A stretch of DNA of 27,445 nt from a virus, in the IMG/VR virus record IMGVR_UViG_3300045107_000836, positions 1 to 27,445 of that record; one strand, written 5' to 3'. The notes below the pieces were generated by a model. The model was not told the DNA's origin. It saw only the letters and a list, made by a program, of their open reading frames with translations, and did no database searches. This document shows positions 6,855-22,940 of the stretch, piece after piece. The position numbers were made by a program, and so were the translations under genes. Numbering within the stretch: the first letter of the stretch is position 1; every line of letters starts with the position of its first letter.

Positions 6855-7699
6855 ACCAAACCCTGGCCTGGAAGCGCTCGAAGAACGGCACCGCCGGCCG
6901 GCTCGATCCGCTGGCCTTCCTGATCCGTGAGCCGGCCGAGGTTTATCACGCCAGGTCGAAAGAACACCTGACCAGCCACGGCCTGGCTGACTTCCGCGAG
7001 AACCCGCTCTTGTATCGCAAGCGGCAACTCGGCCTCGTCGTCGAGGAAGACCGGCCAGCCTTCCAGGTCGGCCGGGCCGCCCACACCCTCATCCTGGAAG
7101 GGCGCGACGCCTACCGGCGGCAGTATGCCTTCGGCGGGCCGACCAATCCGGCGACCGGCAAGCTCTTCGACAGCCGTTCCAAGGCCTACCAGGAATGGGC
7201 CGAGCGCCAGGCCAAGCCGGTGCTGACCGACCGCCAGGCGGTCCTAATCGAAGAGCTGGCCGCTGCTGTCCAGCGCCATCCCGCTGCCGGCGAACTGCTC
7301 GCCGAGGGCGTGCCCGAGGGCGTCATCCGCCGCGACTATTGCGGTGTCCCTTGCCAAGCCAGGTTCGACTGGCTCAATCCCGTCAAAGGCCTCGTCGATC
7401 TCAAGACCTGCGATCACCTCAAGTACCTCGAAGCCGACGCCCGGTCGTTCGGCTACCTGCACCAGCTCGCCTTCTATCGCGCCCTGCTGGCGCTGGAGAC
7501 CGGCGAGTTGCTCCCGGTCTACCTGATCGCCGTCGAGAAGCGCGAACCATACCGCTGCGGTGTCTGGCGGATCGACCCGGGCGTCCTGGCTGTCGCGGAG
7601 CAGGACAACGAGGCCGCCCTGGAGCGCCTGGTGCGCTGCCGGCAGCTCGACCACTGGCCCACCGGCTACGAGGAACTGCGCGTTTTCGACCACCTATGA
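6851..7699 (+). CDS. PD-(D/E)XK exonuclease, RecE/DUF3799-like
   Basis: A 282-residue nuclease. The motifs of the RecE/Cas4-like fold are visible: GRAAHTLILEG (about residues 77-87) with the conserved histidine, RFDWLNPVKGLVDLKT with the catalytic D and D-x-K (about 172-189), and YLHQLAFYRALL with the Q-x-x-x-Y helix (about 201-213). The length fits the phage DUF3799/exodeoxyribonuclease VIII group. Such enzymes chew double-stranded ends to give single strands for an annealing protein. The Sak4-like RecA protein and DUF669 protein downstream would supply annealing and single-strand binding. It is coupled by ATGA to the gene before it. A 76-base gap with a 10-bp inverted repeat (7713-7722/7751-7760) follows. 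Confidence 0.88.
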   Translation: MNQTLAWKRSKNGTAGRLDPLAFLIREPAEVYHARSKEHLTSHGLADFRENPLLYRKRQLGLVVEEDRPAFQVGRAAHTLILEGRDAYRRQYAFGGPTNPATGKLFDSRSKAYQEWAERQAKPVLTDRQAVLIEELAAAVQRHPAAGELLAEGVPEGVIRRDYCGVPCQARFDWLNPVKGLVDLKTCDHLKYLEADARSFGYLHQLAFYRALLALETGELLPVYLIAVEKREPYRCGVWRIDPGVLAVAEQDNEAALERLVRCRQLDHWPTGYEELRVFDHL

Positions 7700-7775
7700 G
7701 GCCGGAGGCTGCAGGCTGGAGGAAGACAAAGCTTTTCTGTTCGCCTCTGGCCTCCAGCCTCACGAGGAACCGAGC

Positions 7776-9572
7776 ATGAGTCTGTTGTCACAAGTCCAGA
7801 GCGGCAAGCGCATCGCTCCACGCCGCCTGCTGCTTTACGGCACCCACGGCGTGGGGAAGGCCCAACCGCTGACGGCGAAAGTCCTCACCCCTACGGGTTT
7901 CGTGGAGATGGGACAGCTCCACGTCGGCGATCAGGTCATCGGCTCGGGCGGACGCCCGTGCACGGTCCTCGGCGTCTATCCCCAAGGGGTCAAGGAGGTT
8001 TTTCGCGTCACGTTCCGCGACGGCTCGGCCACGGAGTGCTGCGATGACCACCTCTGGTTCACCACCACCGACAACGAACGCGCCCGCGGCCTGGGTGGGG
8101 CAGTGCGGACGTTGCGGGACATCCGTCAGTCACTCCGCTGCGGGACGCGGTTCAACCACGCCGTACCCCGTGTCCGGGCGGTCGAGTTCGAGGCCAAGTC
8201 GCTGCCTGTCGATCCGTGGCTGCTCGGCGTGTACCTGGGGGATGGGCATACCGACACCCATGCCATCATCACCAATCCCGAGGCCGACATCCAAAAGCGG
8301 GTCCGCGCGACGGTGGCCACCCAAGGAGACCAGGTCCAGATTTACGACCGGATACGTTTGCGGCTGGTCTCACCCAACCGCAAGGGTACTGATTTCAAGG
8401 CCGCGCTCGTCCAGCTTGGCTTGGCCGATGCGGTGGCCAAGACCAAGTTCGTGCCGCCGGAGTATCTGCTCGGTTCCGTGGACCAGCGCTTGGAATTGTT
8501 GCGGGGCCTGATCGACAGCGACGGGTACGTCACCAACCCTGGCTCGGTGGAGTATTCCACGGTCAGCCCCCAGTTGTCTCGCGACTTCTGCTTCCTCGTC
8601 CGGTCCCTCGGCGGCTCGGCGCGTGTGGTGACGAAACGCGGAGCGTACACCAAGAACGGCGTGAGGCACGACTGCCAACTCGTTTACCGGATTTACGCCT
8701 CCTTCCCGCCGGAGATCACGCCGGTTTCGTCCGCGAAGCATCTGGCGAAATGGGGTCAAGCGAAATGGCGCATTCTCCACACCATTCGGGACGTGGAGTC
8801 TGTCGGCCGCAAGGAATGCCGGTGTATCCGCGTCGATGCGCTCGACTCGCTCTACGTCACGGACGACTTCATCCTGACCCACAACAGCACCTTCGGCTCG
8901 CAGGCCCCTAAGCCGATCTTCGTCCAGACGGAAGATGGCCTGGGCGAGATCGATTGCGACAAGTTCCCTCTGGCCCTGTCTTACCCGGAAGCGCTCAAGG
9001 CGCTGGAGGCGCTCTACACCGAGCCGCATCCCTACCGCACGGTCGTCGTCGATTCGCTCGACTGGCTGGAGAGGCTGATCTGGTCCGAGGTCTGCCGCCA
9101 GCGCTCCGTCGAGAACATCGAGGACATCGGCTACGGCAAGGGCTACGTCTTCGCCTTGACGCTCTGGCGCGAGTTCCTCACCGGCCTGGACGCCCTGCGC
9201 AACGACCGCGGCATGACCGTTGTTCTCATCGCCCATTCCCGCATCGAGCGCTTCGAGAACCCCGAGACCGACAGCTACGACCGCTACGTGCCCAGGCTGC
9301 ACAAGCTGGCCTCGCAGATCATCCAGGAGTGGTGCGACGAGGTGCTGTTCGCCACGTACAAGGTTTACACCAAGCAGACCGACGAGGGCTTCAGCCGCAA
9401 GAAGACCAAGGGCATCGGCACCGGCGAGCGCGTCCTGTATACGACCGAACGCCCCTCTCACGTCGCCAAGAACCGCCTCAATCTGCCGGACGAGGTGCCA
9501 TTGGACTGGCACGCTTACGCTTCGTTTTTCCACCAACCCCACACACAGAATGGAGGACCAACCAATGGCTGA
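7776..9572 (+). CDS. Sak4-like RecA-family ATPase, interrupted by intein
   Basis: A 598-residue precursor; GAGGAA precedes ATG 7776. Without the intein (342 residues) the mature protein is 256 residues, fitting the phage Sak4/AAA_24 family of single-strand annealing proteins. The spliced Walker A is GTHGVGKS; the intein sits after the lysine, so the unspliced protein should lack ATPase activity. The extein continues with FVQTEDGLGEIDCDKFPL, a Walker B-like TVVVDSLDWLE, the GMTVVLIAHSRIERFENP sensor-like strand, and a C-terminal NRLNLPDEVPLDW. Context: exonuclease upstream, DUF669 overlapping downstream by eight bases (9565-9572), RusA next. The likely role is phage DNA recombination and annealing. 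The Sak4 assignment comes from motif and context; a general ATP-binding protein is the alternative. Confidence 0.88.
   Translation: MSLLSQVQSGKRIAPRRLLLYGTHGVGKAQPLTAKVLTPTGFVEMGQLHVGDQVIGSGGRPCTVLGVYPQGVKEVFRVTFRDGSATECCDDHLWFTTTDNERARGLGGAVRTLRDIRQSLRCGTRFNHAVPRVRAVEFEAKSLPVDPWLLGVYLGDGHTDTHAIITNPEADIQKRVRATVATQGDQVQIYDRIRLRLVSPNRKGTDFKAALVQLGLADAVAKTKFVPPEYLLGSVDQRLELLRGLIDSDGYVTNPGSVEYSTVSPQLSRDFCFLVRSLGGSARVVTKRGAYTKNGVRHDCQLVYRIYASFPPEITPVSSAKHLAKWGQAKWRILHTIRDVESVGRKECRCIRVDALDSLYVTDDFILTHNSTFGSQAPKPIFVQTEDGLGEIDCDKFPLALSYPEALKALEALYTEPHPYRTVVVDSLDWLERLIWSEVCRQRSVENIEDIGYGKGYVFALTLWREFLTGLDALRNDRGMTVVLIAHSRIERFENPETDSYDRYVPRLHKLASQIIQEWCDEVLFATYKVYTKQTDEGFSRKKTKGIGTGERVLYTTERPSHVAKNRLNLPDEVPLDWHAYASFFHQPHTQNGGPTNG
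7860..8885 (+). mobile_element. Intein with LAGLIDADG endonuclease, class 3-type
   Basis: This in-frame 342-residue insertion begins with Ala1 (AQPLTAKVLTPTGFV) and ends FILTHN, followed by Ser+1. Ala1 in place of Cys or Ser excludes the class 1 mechanism. The W-C-T set that defines class 3 inteins is present: Trp66 two residues after the block B histidine (DDHLWF), Cys322 at the block F position (CIRVDALDSLYV), and Thr340 before the terminal His-Asn. Two LAGLIDADG motifs, LLGVYLGDGHT (about 121-131) and LLRGLIDSDGY (about 213-223), mark a homing endonuclease. Excision joins GVGK to STFG and restores the Walker A. The endonuclease looks intact. Confidence 0.93.
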
Positions 9573-14661: not shown

Positions 14662-16788
14662 ATGAAGATCGAGCTGCGGAAGCTGTCCGAGATCAAGCCC
14701 TACCCCAACAACCCCCGGCTCAACGACGACGCGGTCGAGGCTGTCGCCGCGTCCATCCGCGAGTTCGGCTTCCGCCAGCCGATCGTGGTGGACGCCGAGG
14801 GGGTCATCATTTGCGGACATACGCGCTACAAGGCCGCGCTGAAGCTCGGTCTGGAGAAAGTGCCCGTCCACGTGGCCAGGGACCTGACGCCGGAGCAGAT
14901 CAAGGCCTACCGCATTGCCGACAACAAGAGCGCCGAGCTGTCCGACTGGAACTACGACTTGCTGCCCATCGAGCTGGGCGAGCTGCAGGCGCTGGACTAC
15001 GACCTCGGATTGCTCGGCTTCGACCAGGACGAACTGGCCCGGCTGCTCGACCCCGTTGTCAAGGACGGCCTGTGCGATCCCGACGAATTGCCCGCCCCGC
15101 CCGACGAGGCGACCACGCGACCAGGCGACCTCTGGCTCTTGGGCAACCACCGCTTGCTCTGCGGCGACAGCGGCAAGCCCGAGGACGTGGATCGCCTGCT
15201 CGACGGCGCAGCCATTCACCTGGTCAACACGGACCCGCCGTACAACGTCAAGGTTGAGCCGCGCTCCAACAACGCCATCGCCGCCGGCCTGTCATCGTTC
15301 GGCGAGTCCAACACCCAGCCTCAGAACCATCATCAAGCCTTCGACGTCGCACGCCAGGGCCCCAAGGCGCCGACGCACAAGAAACTGCGGCCCAAGGACC
15401 GGCCCCTGGCCAACGATTTTGTCTCCGACGAGGCATTCGACCAGATGCTGCACGCCTGGTTCGGTAACCTCGCCCGCGTGCTGCTCCCTGGTCGGGCGTT
15501 CTACATCTGGGGCGGCTACGCCAATTGTGCCAACTACCCACCGGTCCTCAAGGCGTGCGAGCTGTATTTCTCCCAGGCGATCATCTGGGTCAAGGAGCAT
15601 CCCGTCCTCACCCGCAAGGATTTCATGGGCAACCACGAGTGGTGCCAACCGCCCGATACCTCAATCCTGACCGCTTCCGGTTCCTCAGCCCTCCGCGGGC
15701 TGCGCGACGGCGACCGGGTCGTGAGCTTTTCTCGGCGTCACTCGATGATGGTCGGCCTGCGTCAAGGCCAAGAGGTGCGGACCACGAGCCGCCGTTACCA
15801 CGGCCAGCTCTACGGAGTGGTCGTGGGTCCGCGGACGTCGTGGGCGACCGACGGGCACATTTGGAGCGTGCGGATGACGCCGGCTGCAAAAACGAAGTGG
15901 TGCGTCTACTTGATGCACCGTGGCCCCTGGTGGCGGGTCGGCCGCAGCAAGCTGTACACGACTTGGGGGCTCGGCGTCAAACAGCGGCTGGAGAAGGAGA
16001 ATGGCGACGGCGTGTGGATTCTGAAGACCTTTGACACGCGCGCGGAAGCCTCGACGTTCGAGCAGATCGTCTCCGTCGCTTACGGCATCCCGACGACGTT
16101 CTGGACCGAGGCCAACACTACCCGGCGCTCGCAAGCAATGATTCGGAAGATCTACGACCACCTCGACCTCGACCAGATGGAACGGTCGGCGCGGCAAGCG
16201 CTGGCCGAGTGCGGACGCAGCATCTACTATCCGCTCGTTACGCGCGATCAGACCCGGCACAAGTACGCGCAGCGCGTGTCGCTCCTGGCCCGAAGCTGCA
16301 ACCTGATTCCGGAAGTCATGGCGGTGCCGGTCCCCGCTCACGGCCAAGCGACCACCTGGGAACCGATCCGCGCGATTGACGTGCAGCCCTACGACGGCCC
16401 AGTCCACTCGATGGCCGTGGAGAAGTACCACCACTACGTCGCTGACGGGATCGTCACGCACAACTGCTTCTACGGCTGGCGTGAAGGCGCGGCTCACGTC
16501 TTCCTCGGCCCGAACAACGCGACCGATGTCTGGTCGATCAAGAAAGTCAACCCGCAGAACATGATCCATCTAACCGAGAAGCCGGTTGAACTGGCGGTGC
16601 GGGCGATGCAGTACTCGTCGCGGCCCGGCGAGAACGTCCTCGACCTGTTCGGCGGCTCGGGCTCGACGCTCATCGCCGCAGAGCAAACGGGCCGCCGGTG
16701 CTTCCTGATGGAACTCGATCCGCTGTACGCGGACGTCATTGTGCAGCGCTTCGAGAAGTTCACCGGCCGCAAGGCGGAAAGGAGGTAA
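14662..16788 (+). CDS. ParB-domain DNA methyltransferase (N6-adenine/N4-cytosine), interrupted by intein
   Basis: A 708-residue precursor from ATG 14662, 434 residues after removal of a 274-residue intein. The N-terminal ParB-like domain (about 1-105) shows KLSEIKPYPNNPRLND, REFGFRQPIVVD and ICGHTRYKAALKLG. The methyltransferase part has DPPYN (about 192-196, motif IV) before VLDLFGGSGSTLIAAE (AdoMet motif I, near the C-terminus), the beta-class order. The intein lies between HEW and CFYGWREGAAHVFLGP. Such phage enzymes methylate DNA, probably against host restriction; no cognate nuclease gene is visible. It follows the array/hairpin region and precedes the nucleotide genes; a ribosome site (GGAG) stands at 14649-14652. 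Confidence 0.92.
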   Translation: MKIELRKLSEIKPYPNNPRLNDDAVEAVAASIREFGFRQPIVVDAEGVIICGHTRYKAALKLGLEKVPVHVARDLTPEQIKAYRIADNKSAELSDWNYDLLPIELGELQALDYDLGLLGFDQDELARLLDPVVKDGLCDPDELPAPPDEATTRPGDLWLLGNHRLLCGDSGKPEDVDRLLDGAAIHLVNTDPPYNVKVEPRSNNAIAAGLSSFGESNTQPQNHHQAFDVARQGPKAPTHKKLRPKDRPLANDFVSDEAFDQMLHAWFGNLARVLLPGRAFYIWGGYANCANYPPVLKACELYFSQAIIWVKEHPVLTRKDFMGNHEWCQPPDTSILTASGSSALRGLRDGDRVVSFSRRHSMMVGLRQGQEVRTTSRRYHGQLYGVVVGPRTSWATDGHIWSVRMTPAAKTKWCVYLMHRGPWWRVGRSKLYTTWGLGVKQRLEKENGDGVWILKTFDTRAEASTFEQIVSVAYGIPTTFWTEANTTRRSQAMIRKIYDHLDLDQMERSARQALAECGRSIYYPLVTRDQTRHKYAQRVSLLARSCNLIPEVMAVPVPAHGQATTWEPIRAIDVQPYDGPVHSMAVEKYHHYVADGIVTHNCFYGWREGAAHVFLGPNNATDVWSIKKVNPQNMIHLTEKPVELAVRAMQYSSRPGENVLDLFGGSGSTLIAAEQTGRRCFLMELDPLYADVIVQRFEKFTGRKAERR
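15643..16464 (+). mobile_element. Class 1 intein with GIY-YIG-like nuclease domain
   Basis: This in-frame 274-residue insertion begins with Cys1 (CQPPDTSILTASG), has LRDGDRVVSF after block A, a block B-like ATDGHIW (residues 68-74), and ends YHHYVADGIVTHN before Cys+1. These fit a class 1 intein. No LAGLIDADG or HNH motif is present. Instead residues about 84-155 read KWCVYLMHRG, WWRVGRSKL, a conserved-type Arg115, WILKTFDTRAEASTFEQ with Glu140, and AYGIPT. The VYL and RVG triplets ten residues apart plus the later Arg and Glu fit the GIY-YIG nuclease pattern, though the R-to-E spacing is short. The nuclease assignment is inference; the intein itself is clear. Confidence 0.88.
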
Positions 16789-17642: not shown

Positions 17643-17663
17643 GAGACCCCGCTGGGGGGTCTC
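17643..17663. terminator. Hairpin between convergent genes
   Basis: GAGACCCC (17643-17650) pairs with GGGGTCTC (17656-17663) around a GCTGG loop, in the 66-base gap between convergent stop codons at 17623 and 17690. There is no T-run on either side, so it is a possible bidirectional terminator rather than a sure one. Confidence 0.45.
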
Positions 17664-17689: not shown

Positions 17690-18049
17690 CTACGCTTCCG
17701 CGTCCGGCTGGTTCGGATCGTAGACGGTGCCGCAACTGTCACAGCGTACCTTCTCGTCGTCGAGCCAGACGAGGTGGTCGATGTCGTCCTCTCCACAATG
17801 CGGGCAGGCGGGGCCGGGCGGCGTCCAATCGTCCGCGCCTTCCTGGCTCTGGCAGAGGTCGTAGATGGCCATCGCCGCCAGCATGCCGACCAGCTGCTGC
17901 ACCGGCTCGTCCATGCCGGCCAGCCGACCGCCGGTGCAGTCGCGGAACAGCTCGACCAGGTCGTCGGGGTCCATGCGTTCGAGGGCCGTCCGCACGTCGG
18001 CCTGCGTCTGGTCGATATGGGCCATCAGTTTCAGAACCTCGCGGTCCAT
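17690..18049 (-). CDS. Zinc-ribbon protein, last gene of amidoligase cassette
   Basis: A 119-residue protein read on the minus strand from ATG at 18049; GGAGG stands upstream on that strand. The N-terminal two thirds are acidic and helical (VLKLMAHIDQTQADVRTALERMDPDDLVELFRD, then QQLVGMLAAMAIYDLCQ). The C-terminus has a four-cysteine ribbon: CPHC, then CDSC about 20 residues on. There is no catalytic motif. It lies 14 bases after the broken HARE-HTH gene and is presumably the last gene of the same operon. It may be a nucleic-acid or protein adaptor; function unknown. Confidence 0.75.
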   Translation of the reverse strand: MDREVLKLMAHIDQTQADVRTALERMDPDDLVELFRDCTGGRLAGMDEPVQQLVGMLAAMAIYDLCQSQEGADDWTPPGPACPHCGEDDIDHLVWLDDEKVRCDSCGTVYDPNQPDAEA

Positions 18050-18063
18050 CGTGGCCTCCGTTT

Positions 18064-18708
18064 CTACTTGGCCAGCGCGAACTTGCCGCGCTCGGTCTTG
18101 GTGAATCGGGACTCCTTGGCCTTGGTCGTGATCTCGCGCGCGATGGCGGCGTAGAGCGTGGCGGCAGGCGTCTTGCCGTTGGGGCTGCTCCAGTAGCCTT
18201 TGGCCGCCATCGCTTCGATCACCTCCTGGCAGGTCATCGCCTGGCCGGTTTCGCCCAGCACCTTGGCGGCGGCGTCCAGGCAGCCGAGCTTCTTCGGCTT
18301 GGCTTCGCCGTCGGCCTTGGCCCAGGGCCGTTTGCTGTTTCACACTGGGCAAGACGATTCGCCGTAAGTCCAAGAATGACGGCCAACCGACCGGCGCCCA
18401 ACCTACCCAGCTTGAAACAGCAAACGGCCCTGGGCCTTGGCCCTGGTCGTCTTCTTGCCCTTGGCCTTCGAGGCCTTCTTGCCGTCCTCGCTCTGAGCCT
18501 GGACCTCCGGCTTGGCCTGGGGCGAGCCGTCGCGGTTGGCCGAGCAGCGCAAGCGCTGGGCGCTCTTGATGCGGACCTTCTTGTCGGTCAGCAGGTTGGT
18601 CGCGTCCCAGCCGCCGTGCGCATTCTCCGCGTCGATGCGCACCGGAACGACCTTGTCGCTGACCTTGGCCAGGTACGTTCCGCCGACCTTGATCTCGTCC
18701 TTCTTCAT
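18064..18708 (-). pseudogene. HARE-HTH domain protein, broken by a small insertion
   Basis: On the minus strand the gene starts at ATG 18708 (GAGGAG ribosome site just upstream). The first part reads [39 protein letters not shown] and a Lys/Ala linker. It then enters a 120-bp insertion (18313-18432) and stops at TAG 18405-18403 after 101 residues. The second part, in the same frame, reads [26 protein letters not shown] in pieces, [22 protein letters not shown] and [14 protein letters not shown], a HARE-HTH winged-helix domain. Removing the insertion restores a 174-residue protein. HARE-HTH domains link DNA-modification and transcription systems. The C-half could restart at GTG 18261. Confidence 0.8.
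18313..18443. mobile_element. MITE-like inverted-repeat element with flanking direct repeat
   Basis: Two perfect 24-bp arms face each other (18319-18342 and 18413-18436; the core AGGGCCGTTTGCTGTTTCA pairs exactly with its complement), enclosing 70 bases without a gene. An 11-bp direct repeat GGCCTTGGCCC stands at 18313-18323 and 18433-18443, exactly 120 bases apart, as expected for a target duplication. Deleting one repeat copy plus the element restores the HARE-HTH frame. There is no transposase; it would be mobilised in trans. The family is unknown; an 11-bp duplication is seen in some IS4-group elements. Confidence 0.8.
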
Positions 18709-18804
18709 GGTGAGTCTCCTCATGGGAGGTTGCGATGGATTGGCTGCCATCATCAGGCGGCGGGAACCACCCGCCGCGACGCGAGGCAAGCCCGCGTTTC
18801 GGCT

Positions 18805-19461
18805 TTACGTCCCGAAGCGAAGTTCTCTGTCGTAGACCAAGACCCGCACGCGGTCGTCGGCGATCGGCAGCACCCGGCCCGGCAGGCCATCGGCCAGGGA
18901 GCCGAAGTAGAAGCCGTCGTGGGCCTCGCCGAAGTGGAGCGGGTTGCCATGACGCACGATCAGCAGACGCGGCGGCGCTCGCCAGACGCCAAGCAGCGCC
19001 AGCGGCCCCTCGGCGGCATCGACACCGATCGCCGCGCGGCGCTGCAGCGAGCCGGGCACCTTTGCCATCAAGAGGCCAAGGATCTCGCTGTCGCATTCGG
19101 TCTCCGGCACCAGGCCGTAGCGCTTCGCGATGCTGGCGTGGTTGCGGACGACGCCGTTGTGAACGAGCCAGCCGCGGCCGGCGCGATGCGGATGGTTGTT
19201 GCGGTTGTCGGCCGGGTCGCCGTGTGTCGCGTACCGGCAATGGCCCGCGACGATGAGCGCATCGCGGCAGCAGTCCAGCGCGTCCAGGTTCGCCGCCGCC
19301 GAGCCGGGACGCTTGAATGCGTGCAGCTTGCCGTCGGGTGTGACCCACGCCAGGCCGAAGGCGTGGACGCCGCGAATTTGCGTTTCCAGGGCGATGCGCC
19401 GGAGGCAGTCCAGGTCGGGGCCGCGTCCGGTCTTGCTCAGGTAGCCGAAGAGTCCGCACAT
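18805..19461 (-). CDS. Class II glutamine amidotransferase (Ntn hydrolase)
   Basis: A 218-residue protein on the minus strand. The start is set at ATG 19461 so that Cys2 (MCGLFGYLS) becomes the N-terminal nucleophile after methionine removal; an alternative GTG at 19470 would bury it. Class II landmarks: GHCRYATHGDPADN with NNHPH, WLVHNGVVRNH, and ETECDSEILGLLM. There is no synthetase domain; at this length it is a stand-alone glutaminase domain that gives ammonia, or acts as a related amidohydrolase. It lies 18 bases after the amidoligase, so the two very likely work together: amide nitrogen from one, ligation by the other. Confidence 0.9.
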   Translation of the reverse strand: MCGLFGYLSKTGRGPDLDCLRRIALETQIRGVHAFGLAWVTPDGKLHAFKRPGSAAANLDALDCCRDALIVAGHCRYATHGDPADNRNNHPHRAGRGWLVHNGVVRNHASIAKRYGLVPETECDSEILGLLMAKVPGSLQRRAAIGVDAAEGPLALLGVWRAPPRLLIVRHGNPLHFGEAHDGFYFGSLADGLPGRVLPIADDRVRVLVYDRELRFGT

Positions 19462-19479
19462 GGGTGTCACCTCGTGGCG

Positions 19480-20334
19480 TTAGCGTTGCGTGTCGTACTT
19501 CTTGGCCAGGCGGCGGAACTCCACCTTGACCGCGTCCTGGGTCTCGGCGTCGAGCATCCAGCCGAAATGCTGGCCGCCATGAATGCGGGCATAGCCCGGC
19601 GACCAGGCCAGGTAGCCGATCAGCCGTTCCGCCTCGCTCTGGCCCTCGCCGGCTTTCTTCCAGCCGCCCCGCGGCGGCCGCGGGCTGAAGCTCGGCATCC
19701 GCTTGGCGGCCAAGGCGCGCTGCACCAGGCCCAGGCAGACCTGAATCCAGCCGAGGACCTTCACCACCTGCAGCGAGCCGGAGAAGACCCGGAACTCGAC
19801 CGTGTCCTTGGTGCCGTTGGCCAGGTTGGTGAGGTTGAGGGCGTGGTAACGTCCGTTTTCGACCCGGTCCTTGGCGTGGTCTTTGTTGCCGTAGCGCCGC
19901 ACGCCGCCGCAATACGCGCCGCGTTCGCGCTGCTTGGTGCCGGTGATGGCGTACAGGCCCTTCTCGACGTAGGCGACGATGGTCACCAGCCGGGCCAGGG
20001 CTTCGCTGGGCCAGTCGCGTTTCCACCCGACATGCACATGCACGCCGGTCGAGCCGTTGACTCGATGGTTTTTGGCCTGCAACGTTCGCAGGACCTCGGC
20101 GACCTGGGCCAGCCCCTCGGCCCCCTGGAGGACCGGGCTGACGATCTCGCAGGCGTGGCCGCCGTCGGTGGGCCGGATCGAGCCGTCGCACTCGGCGGTC
20201 CAGCCTGGCGGCAGGTAGGGAACCTGGATGCCTCGGCGGTAGCTGCCGATGCGCAGGCCGTCGTGGGCGACGGCGCTGGCCGGGGCGATGGTCTCGATCT
20301 CGATTCCAAAGGTGAGTTGGTCGGCTTGGATCAT
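19480..20334 (-). CDS. Putative amidoligase (Amidoligase_2, glutamine-synthetase-like fold)
   Basis: A 284-residue protein on the minus strand from ATG 20334 (an upstream in-frame ATG at 20376 is possible; the ribosome site is weak). Amidoligase_2 motifs: FGIEIETI (9-16, metal-binding glutamates), ECDGSIRP (about 48-55), CEIVSP (62-67), TGVHVHVGW (about 96-104), NGRYHALNL (about 160-168) and TVEFRVFSGS (about 178-187). These enzymes are predicted to form amide or peptide bonds with ATP. Pairing with a class II GATase is a known genomic theme for predicted peptide or cell-wall modification systems. Substrate unknown. It is the first gene of the minus-strand operon that interrupts the phage gene order. 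Confidence 0.9.
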   Translation of the reverse strand: MIQADQLTFGIEIETIAPASAVAHDGLRIGSYRRGIQVPYLPPGWTAECDGSIRPTDGGHACEIVSPVLQGAEGLAQVAEVLRTLQAKNHRVNGSTGVHVHVGWKRDWPSEALARLVTIVAYVEKGLYAITGTKQRERGAYCGGVRRYGNKDHAKDRVENGRYHALNLTNLANGTKDTVEFRVFSGSLQVVKVLGWIQVCLGLVQRALAAKRMPSFSPRPPRGGWKKAGEGQSEAERLIGYLAWSPGYARIHGGQHFGWMLDAETQDAVKVEFRRLAKKYDTQR

Positions 20335-20467: not shown

Positions 20468-20683
20468 ATGACAACTGATTATCGCGAGGCGGCCAGCCTG
20501 AACCCGAACGCGCTGCCTTTGGCCGATGCCGCCCGCCTCTTGGCCCGCGTGGGCGGCCAGGCGGTCACCGTCGAGATGCTCCAGGCAGACGTGGCGGCCG
20601 GCGCGCCCACGAACGCCGACGGGACAATCAACCTGGTCCACTATGCCGCCTGGCTCTTGAAGGAGATGGGGCGTGCCGATTGA
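20468..20683 (+). CDS. Small packaging-region protein, TerS-like candidate
   Basis: A 71-residue protein from ATG 20468 to TGA 20683. It reads LPLADAARLLARVGGQAVTVEMLQADVAAGAP, then DGTINLVHYAAWLLKEM. The pattern RLL, then EMLQ, then an AG turn and L-YAAWL resembles the first 60 residues of the terminase ORF (CRLLNS, ERQLHRH, RAGLRI, LLRYVAWLV), suggesting a shared small DNA-binding domain. It overlaps the terminase start by 11 bases, so the two are translated together. A role as small terminase subunit is inference; no classic TerS was found elsewhere in the window. Confidence 0.65.
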   Translation: MTTDYREAASLNPNALPLADAARLLARVGGQAVTVEMLQADVAAGAPTNADGTINLVHYAAWLLKEMGRAD

Positions 20684-22940
20684 CCCGCGCAAGCTGCGGC
20701 CGAGCGAGTTGTGCCGGCTCTTGAACTCGACCCCGCTCGGCGAGGTGTTAAGCGAGCGGCAGCTCCACCGCCATCGGAGCCGGGCTGGCCTGCGCATCGG
20801 CGACGCCCGGCACGTGGACCTGCTGCGCTACGTCGCCTGGCTCGTGCAACTGCGGCATACGCCGAGGCCCGAACCAGAGCGCGATCCCTACGAGACGCTC
20901 AAAGAGCGCGCCCGCGCTCGCAACATCGCGCTGTCGCTGGCCGGGCGGGACATCGGCGAGCTGCCGGAAGTCGTGAACCCGGAGCGAAAGGAGAGGGCGG
21001 CGGCAGATTTCCGCTTCTTCTGCGAGCAGTATTTTCCGCTGACGTTCCACCTCCCCTGGTCGCGCGACCACCTGAAGGTCATCGCCAAAATCGAACAGGC
21101 CGTGTTGCGGGGCGGCCTCTTCGCAATGGCGATGCCGCGCGGCAGCGGCAAAAGCACGATCTGCGAGTGCGCCTGCATCTGGGCGGTCCTCAATGGGCAC
21201 CGCGAGTTCGTGTGCCTGATCGGTAGCGACGAAGGCCACGCGATGGACATGCTCGACTCGATCAAGATGGAACTCGACGGCAACGACCTGTTGCTCGAAG
21301 ACTTCCCGGAAGTGGTCTATCCGATTCAATGCCTGGACGGCATCGCCAACCGCTGCAACGGCCAGCTCTACAAGGGCGAGCGGACGCACATCGGCTGGAC
21401 GGCCAGGGAGATCGTGTTGCCGACGATCCCGGAGAGCAAGGCGAGCGGGGCGATCATCAAGGTCGCCGGCATCACCGGTCGCATCCGCGGCATGAAGTAC
21501 AAGCGCGCCGACGGCAAGACGGTGCGGCCCACGCTGGTCGTCCTCGACGACCCGCAGACCGACGAGTCGGCGCGGTCGCTGTCGCAATGCGCCACGCGTG
21601 AGAGCATCCTGGCCGGCGCGGTCCTCGGCTTGGCCGGGCCGGGGAAGAAGATCTCCGGCATCATGCCCTGCACGGTGATCCGGCCGGGCGACATGGCCGA
21701 CAATATCCTCGACCGCGACAAGCACCCGGAGTGGAACGGCGAGCGGACCAAGATGGTCTACTCGTTCCCCGCCAACGAGAAGCTCTGGCAACAGTACGCC
21801 GAGCTGCGCGCCGACAGCCTGCGGCGTGGCAACGCCGGAGAGGAGGCGACCGAGTTTTATCGACAGAACCAGGCGGCGATGGACGAAGGGGCGGTCGTCG
21901 CCTGGCCGGAGCGCTTCAACCACGATGAACTCTCGGCGATCCAGCATGCGATGAACTTGAAGCTGCAGGACGAGGCGGCGTTCTTCGCCGAATACCAGAA
22001 CGAGCCGCTGCCGGCAGAAACGGTGGACGCCGACGAACTCACGGCGGACCAGATCGCGGGCAAGCTGAACCGCATGAAGCGCTACGAGGTGCCCATCGGC
22101 TGCAATCACGTAACCATGTTCATCGACGTGCAGGCCAACCTGCTCTTCTTCGTGGTGGCGGCGTGGGAGGACGATTTCACCGGCTACGTCCTCGACTACG
22201 GCACCTTCCCCGACCAGAAGCGGCCGTACTTCACTCTCCGTGATGCGAGGCTGACGCTCGCCGGAGTGACTGGCGCGGCCGGCCTGGAAGGGGCCATCTA
22301 CGCCGGCCTGGAAAAGCTGACCGCCAACCTCCTGGGCCGAGCTTGGCGGCGTGACGACGGGGCCGACCTGCGGGTCGAGCGCTGCCTGATCGACGCAAAC
22401 TGGGGCTCGGCCACGGACGTGGTCTACCAGTTCTGCCGGCAGTCGGCGCACGCGGGCATCGTGCTGCCCAGCCACGGCCGGTTCGTGGGCGCCTCCAGCC
22501 AGCCGTTCAGCGAGTACAAGCGCCGGCCGGGCGACCGGGTCGGGCACAACTGGCGCATCCCCAACGTCCACGGCAAGCGGGCCGTCCGCCACGCGCTCTA
22601 CGACACCAACTACTGGAAGTCCTTCGTCCACGCTCGCCTGGCCGTTTCGATGGGCGACCGGGGCTGTCTGTACCTCTTCGGCGACAAACCGGAGATACAC
22701 CGTCTCTTCGCGGAGCACCTGACCGCCGAGTACCGCGTGCGGACGGAGGGCCGCGGGCGCACCGTGGATGAATGGAAACAGCGCCCGGAGCGTGGCGACA
22801 ACCACTGGCTGGACTGCCTGGTCGGCTGCGCCGTGGCAGCCTCCATGCAGGGCGTGGTCCTGCCGGGCACCGACGGCACCGGCCCCGCCAAGCGCGAGCG
22901 CGTCAGCTTCGCCACCATGCAGCGGGGGAGGCGGCGATGA
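20673..22940 (+). CDS. Phage terminase large subunit (GpA-like)
   Basis: A 755-residue protein; AAGGAG (20660-20665) supports GTG 20673. The N-terminus (about 5-65) is a small helical domain like the preceding protein. ATPase: Walker A MPRGSGKST (about 154-162), Walker B PTLVVLDDPQTDE (about 285-297). Nuclease: acidic positions in TMFIDVQANLLFF (about 481-493), CLIDANWG (about 570-577) and HWLDCLVG (about 709-716). It cuts and pumps DNA into proheads. The length and the long C-terminus fit the GpA-like group. The stop overlaps the next start by ATGA, and portal and capsid genes follow, so this begins the late module. Confidence 0.93.
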   Translation: MPIDPRKLRPSELCRLLNSTPLGEVLSERQLHRHRSRAGLRIGDARHVDLLRYVAWLVQLRHTPRPEPERDPYETLKERARARNIALSLAGRDIGELPEVVNPERKERAAADFRFFCEQYFPLTFHLPWSRDHLKVIAKIEQAVLRGGLFAMAMPRGSGKSTICECACIWAVLNGHREFVCLIGSDEGHAMDMLDSIKMELDGNDLLLEDFPEVVYPIQCLDGIANRCNGQLYKGERTHIGWTAREIVLPTIPESKASGAIIKVAGITGRIRGMKYKRADGKTVRPTLVVLDDPQTDESARSLSQCATRESILAGAVLGLAGPGKKISGIMPCTVIRPGDMADNILDRDKHPEWNGERTKMVYSFPANEKLWQQYAELRADSLRRGNAGEEATEFYRQNQAAMDEGAVVAWPERFNHDELSAIQHAMNLKLQDEAAFFAEYQNEPLPAETVDADELTADQIAGKLNRMKRYEVPIGCNHVTMFIDVQANLLFFVVAAWEDDFTGYVLDYGTFPDQKRPYFTLRDARLTLAGVTGAAGLEGAIYAGLEKLTANLLGRAWRRDDGADLRVERCLIDANWGSATDVVYQFCRQSAHAGIVLPSHGRFVGASSQPFSEYKRRPGDRVGHNWRIPNVHGKRAVRHALYDTNYWKSFVHARLAVSMGDRGCLYLFGDKPEIHRLFAEHLTAEYRVRTEGRGRTVDEWKQRPERGDNHWLDCLVGCAVAASMQGVVLPGTDGTGPAKRERVSFATMQRGRRR

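Follow-up and report, generated by a model that had tools for sequence, protein, structure and literature searches.

Hammerhead ribozymes situated between genes are already known from prophages, where tandem intergenic copies were found to flank genes that are not constant, and some of these arrangements were shown to cut polycistronic RNA (Perreault et al., 2011; PMC3088659). The locus considered here belongs to a viral sequence of 27,445 bases (IMG/VR record IMGVR_UViG_3300045107_000836; this whole stretch is referred to as the window), in which four minus-strand genes at positions 17690–20334 encode, in reading order, an amidoligase, a class II glutamine amidotransferase (GATase, a glutaminase), a protein combining an SH3-like domain with a HARE helix-turn-helix (HARE-HTH) domain, and a zinc-ribbon protein. 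An earlier, sequence-only reading of this stretch had reported the four genes; the hammerhead that separates the second from the third was absent from it and was found by an Rfam search. It appears rather probable that the genes form an accessory island on the reverse strand of a temperate phage of Planctomycetia, with a constant HARE gene that is led here by a hammerhead and with the amidoligase and glutaminase as well as the zinc ribbon as optional members, and that cleavage by the ribozyme splits the island message. Like the hammerheads of the 2011 study, this one is of type II with a pseudoknot and stands between genes of the same strand; it differs from them in that its downstream gene is a HARE gene in 49 of 53 chromosomal cases. 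Intergenic prophage hammerheads being known, the fixed partner gene is the new part: the literature searched, mostly without subscription papers, yielded no hammerhead subtype whose partner gene is constant.

The window hammerhead occupies positions 18738–18804 on the minus strand (RF02276, 45.9 bits against a gathering threshold of 37, E = 1.4e-6), with its first base directly after the stop codon of the GATase and its end 29 nt short of the HARE start. Its core is intact, a pseudoknot links loop I to the tail, and cleavage is predicted 3' of window base 18778, at a GUC triplet. A covariance model of our own, built from nine hammerhead copies, gave 32 matches in 100 loci, of which the true ones always lie on the island strand and one, in locus L130, was rejected as false because its core is broken. 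All 55 copies examined retain the CUGANGA and GAAA core elements, the triplet fits NUH wherever it was assigned (GUC, GUA or GUU), and most copies begin within −2 to +6 nt of the stop codon of the preceding gene. Stems I and III are closed by loops while stem II is open, and the stems are supported by covariation: across 23 distinct copies 96.4% of the pair cells are standard, and double changes occur in 16 of 20 pairs compared with 7.7 in shuffles. None of 500 shuffles matched any of the five measures used, and slid structures scored far lower. A pseudoknot of at least 4 bp between loop I and the 3' tail is possible in 48 of 49 distinct copies. As shuffled tails allow 4 bp in 57% of cases, however, the compensatory double change that replaces UGGUU/AGCCA by UGGGU/ACCCA weighs more than this count.

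The partnership between ribozyme and HARE gene was followed in islands and in chromosomes. In an island sample meant to avoid query bias, for which loci were picked by their terminase alone (the 80 best matches, with 49 complete islands), a hammerhead precedes 24 of 48 HARE genes, and every complete island that has a hammerhead has one before HARE. It is present in 12 of 12 amidoligase islands and in 12 of 37 others (Fisher p = 3e-5, kinship ignored); the notion that the ribozyme is specific to amidoligase islands, which derived from its absence in all 42 HARE-selected loci, is overturned by these 12 islands lacking an amidoligase. A chromosome search by the ribozyme alone covered 398 Planctomycetia genomes and a wider sample of 392 genomes of the phylum, and our model matched in 39 of the former and in only one further genome of the latter. 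The Rfam model pointed to nearly the same places, with 37 genomes above its cut-off and none among 14 control genomes, and the training set of our model is therefore not the cause of the result. The 49 chromosomal cases out of 53 distinct ones are followed directly by a HARE or SH3-HARE gene at a spacing of mostly 23–29 nt. Over 106 distinct hammerhead copies, 84 of 100 downstream genes belong to a single cluster, and the upstream genes fall into 14 clusters. Ahead of HARE genes the gap measures about 93–96 nt where the ribozyme is present, compared with a median near 48 nt where it is absent; no other Rfam ribozyme matched before the hammerhead-free HARE genes of 18 loci, and no hammerhead was found beside the amidoligases of PaP3, gut, Geobacillus, Porphyromonas and Arthrobacter phages.

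In four loci (L002, L006, L007 and L014) tandem hammerheads flank an open reading frame (ORF) of 52 aa, and the window hammerhead looks like a recombinant of both tandem copies from which the intervening ORF has been deleted. Such arrangements, together with the known occurrence of hammerheads in mobile elements, would fit a view of these ribozymes as relics of mobile elements or recombination spots, or as a means of making circular RNA from the stretch between two tandem copies, in either case without bearing on HARE expression. This view seems unlikely given the strong covariation, the intact cores and the near-fixed distance to the HARE start, and given that most islands carry a single copy. 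In two of the tandem loci (L002 6874–7785 and L006 874–1785) no stop ends the GATase frame across the first hammerhead, and it continues into the 52-aa ORF; an uncut message would thus encode a fusion protein.

HARE-HTH proteins, among them ASXL1 and restriction enzymes, reportedly were predicted by Aravind and Iyer in 2012 to bind DNA or modified DNA. HARE domains are regarded as probable readers of DNA modification (PMC11037411). The island proteins share the domain, and their genes lie close to that of the phage's DNA methyltransferase. They differ from the known members in being small, stand-alone phage proteins that are very basic (median pI 10.1) and in which the winged helix follows either a Tudor/SH3-like barrel or a tail rich in Lys, Ala and Pro. 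The best guess is that they act as chromatin-like or methylation-reading regulators of the prophage, the methyltransferase neighbour being only suggestive.

In the window, the HARE-HTH gene of the sequence-only reading holds up as a domain, and it is not one intact ORF. Its 5' part (18406–18708, minus strand) encodes the SH3/Tudor-like N-terminal domain and a basic linker, with 74–84% identity to the N-terminal domain of the closest relatives, and its 3' part (18064–18327, minus strand) encodes the HARE-HTH winged helix (PF05066, E = 2.6e-13; E = 1.2e-12 in an intact relative). The protein model of an intact relative shows an SH3/Tudor-like barrel, and its winged helix finds structural matches at Z 7–8. 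The gene is interrupted by a palindromic insert (18313–18443) with a 120-bp unit, 11-bp direct repeats GGGCCAAGGCC on each side (18313–18323 and 18433–18443) and 20-bp inverted ends CAGGGCCGTTTGCTGTTTCA. The insert adds in-frame stops, one of which ends the 5' part; the joined flanks stay in frame, and aligned relatives encode one uninterrupted SH3-like and HARE protein with no insert. The insert resembles a small transposed element. A search for further copies found none, which speaks against a widespread repeat, and the use of TAG as an ordinary stop in neighbouring genes speaks against read-through by recoded stops.

The position of the ribozyme suggests how the message might be processed. 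The island transcript would be read from the amidoligase toward the zinc ribbon, and since the ribozyme takes up the intergenic stretch that precedes HARE, a single cut would divide the transcript into two messages. On the enzyme mRNA, stem III would form the 3' end, a hairpin that carries a cyclic phosphate and directly follows the upstream stop. The HARE mRNA would begin with a 5'-OH, with the 8-bp hairpin of stem I as its cap. Both halves would probably be stabilised in this way, and HARE expression would be uncoupled from the variable upstream cargo. It is also possible, albeit as a tentative proposal, that the hammerhead is a dedicated expression module of the SH3/HARE regulator, in which cleavage, perhaps tuned by HARE binding to its own leader, sets the dose of the regulator and thereby the state of the prophage. 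Several observations call for caution regarding the proposed splitting of the message in a HARE-centred island. Minimum-energy folds of single sequences sometimes do not contain the ribozyme fold, as for the window and one L002 copy. The 42 HARE loci that were found by HARE similarity and have no hammerhead indicate that HARE does not need the ribozyme, and about 15 of the 55 hammerhead copies precede other small genes. Moreover, the island phages are related, which makes the counts non-independent events, and the broken HARE gene means that the unit is partly decayed in the window.

The composition of the islands bears on whether the four genes work as a single unit, as the sequence-only reading had suggested. 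A survey of neighbourhoods, which that reading had proposed, did find the amidoligase together with HARE, since 20 of 21 complete amidoligase-selected islands contain HARE or SH3-HARE and all 21 contain the GATase. Among the terminase-selected complete islands, HARE is present in 48 of 49, the amidoligase in 12 of 49 and the GATase in 1 of 49, and an amidoligase is absent from 37 of 38 complete islands selected by HARE. That the four proteins make up one modification system, in which amidoligase and GATase form an amide or conjugate and HARE and the zinc ribbon guide it to DNA-bound targets, agrees with their adjoining positions on one strand and with the company that HARE keeps in amidoligase islands. 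It is nonetheless highly improbable, because HARE mostly occurs in islands lacking an amidoligase, the zinc ribbon is sporadic, the ribozyme lies between the enzyme and the HARE messages, and gene order varies; HARE as a part of an amidoligase system was rejected on the terminase-selected survey. HARE is the core gene of the island, amidoligase and GATase are optional cargo and the zinc ribbon comes and goes. The latter gene (17690–18049, minus strand) encodes a small accessory protein with a candidate C-terminal zinc ribbon (CPHCGEDDID...CDSCG), which shows a CxxC...CxxC pattern and has weak Pfam matches that stay below the cut-off. An accompanying tag peptide, which had also been suggested, was not found; the 52-aa ORF that adjoins the cassette in the four tandem loci does not occur in the window. 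A Fic protein is encoded in nine islands (for example L209 2840–4006, SoFic type, PADLOC E = 1.7e-110), which coincides with an amidoligase only once.

Phage amidoligases with GATases are a known kind of gene set. Iyer et al. reportedly described the system in 2009, with ATP-grasp and gamma-glutamylcyclotransferase proteins as further partners. Sets of amidoligase and GATase in LUZ24-like, OM43 and Arthrobacter phages are discussed following that work. The planctomycete phage ZRK32 encodes an amidoligase, a glutamine amidotransferase, a glutathione synthase and a gamma-glutamylcyclotransferase, for which a role in nitrogen metabolism was proposed (PMC10945688). The window resembles such phage sets, in which an Amidoligase_2 gene adjoins a GATase_6-type glutaminase, often with a gamma-glutamylcyclotransferase. 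It differs from them in that its amidoligase forms a clade of its own with about 30% identity to those of phages from isolates, in that its glutaminase is a bare domain of 218 aa, and in the company of HARE and a hammerhead on a reverse-strand island. The pairing of an ATP-dependent ligase with a glutaminase that serves it also recalls MurT/GatD and AsnB-type amidation. There, a Mur ligase (MurT) works with a class I GATase (GatD), whereas a glutamine-synthetase fold is combined here with a class II GATase.

The amidoligase (19480–20334, minus strand, 284 aa; Amidoligase_2, glutamine-synthetase fold; PF12224 E = 3.8e-22, phrog_2443 E = 1e-27) is 56–91% identical among relatives, and its ExE, HxH and EFR residues, that is E12, E14, E63, H99, H101 and R182, are invariant in 14 sequences. 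Catalytic and metal-binding roles of these residues are predicted from the fold. An AlphaFold model computed from the 14 sequences (mean pLDDT 71, pTM 0.75) resembles YbdK, glutamate-cysteine ligase, glutamine synthetase and the Pup ligase (Foldseek E about 1e-4; VIA-align Z 9–11.5). The stand-alone class II GATase (18805–19461, minus strand, 218 aa; PF13522 E = 5.2e-12) is 48–81% identical among relatives, with Cys2, Arg76, Asn102, Gly103 and Asp124 invariant in 12; its profile matches the glutaminase domain of GlmS (glucosamine-6-phosphate synthase) with E = 1.8e-22, and these five residues align with the GlmS active site. As the GATase has no synthase part, the ammonia must pass to a partner, and among 112 islands none has a GATase without an amidoligase. 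The two genes form a close pair of a type already known from phages. Neither of the two findings that would have refuted the sequence-only reading was made, as the amidoligase does occur with HARE genes and its catalytic residues are kept; amide synthesis with glutamine nitrogen, as that reading had it, stays the natural reading of the pair. The glutaminase would free ammonia from glutamine and the amidoligase would activate a carboxylate with ATP and convert it to the amide, an amine being a possible acceptor instead of ammonia.

A different reading of the amidoligase, which has a modest chance of being right, takes it as a peptide or protein ligase of PafA-like or gamma-glutamyl type that couples an amino acid or a tag to its target, while glutamate or ammonia would come from the glutaminase on the side. 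The structural model matches not only glutamine synthetase (Z about 10) but also YbdK and glutamate-cysteine ligase (both Z about 11) and the Pup ligase (Z 9.2), and amidoligases of a second clade in these islands come without a GATase; however, the fold alone does not tell ammonia from amine substrates, and in the window's clade the GATase accompanies the amidoligase. Amidoligases of the second clade (L201, L206, L211, L218 and others) adjoin terminase genes in related prophages and phages. It is rather improbable that the pair constitutes an auxiliary nitrogen-metabolism set feeding amino-acid synthesis of the host, as proposed for ZRK32. The gene set of that phage and the gamma-glutamylcyclotransferase in one relative, L015, are in line with such a role, but shifting nitrogen out of glutamine brings no net gain, the genes sit in the cargo island of a temperate phage, and no ATP-grasp protein was noticed in the window, although no dedicated ATP-grasp profile search was made; the window has no gamma-glutamylcyclotransferase either. 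The island of L015 (4873–6870) combines this gene (PF06094 E = 1.9e-17) with two divergent amidoligase genes on opposite strands. In a gut phage of Christensenellales (L145 4323–7180), an amidoligase and a gamma-glutamylcyclotransferase lie on the opposite strand near ParB and terminase genes.

The surroundings of the island agree with a temperate phage, as the sequence-only reading had presumed when it spoke of lysogeny. A serine recombinase with DUF2924 lies at the left end of the window, and 15 of 16 chromosomal regions inspected show the same prophage layout as the island phages; the genome matches are all to Planctomycetota, and the host class is Planctomycetia according to record titles. 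The placement of the four genes against the plus-strand map was likewise borne out, with profile matches for all four, the zinc ribbon being weak. On one side the island is bordered by plus-strand genes for a ParB-DNA methyltransferase, a dATP/dGTP diphosphohydrolase and DUF1937, on the other by terminase, portal and capsid genes. The ParB-N6/N4 DNA methyltransferase gene (14674–16788; PF01555 E = 1.7e-24, ParB_N, Intein_splicing) contains an in-frame intein (about residues 323–597, with a GIY-YIG-like stretch recognised by eye) that relatives do not have, and an AAA_24 gene at 7560–9569 embeds a LAGLIDADG homing endonuclease and probably holds a second intein. The large terminase subunit (20673–22940, plus strand) is a conserved neighbour in relatives, and a terminator-like hairpin, a pattern match only, lies at the island end (17643–17663, minus strand). 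In 17 close viral relatives the same island occupies the same place on the strand opposite to terminase and methyltransferase, with order and strand kept. A known anti-phage defence system was rejected as an explanation, as PADLOC models gave no match to the amidoligase, GATase, HARE or window zinc-ribbon proteins.

Taken together, the survey gives a different weight to the parts of these islands: amidoligase and glutaminase appear as optional cargo, and a histone-like, possibly methylation-reading protein as the core. Since 2011, when hammerheads turned up in large numbers in bacteria and phages, their role there has been an open question, partly because their neighbouring genes seemed inconstant. 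With one subtype that has a constant partner at a near-fixed spacing, in a widespread family of Planctomycetia prophages that includes sequenced chromosomes, this function becomes simply testable.

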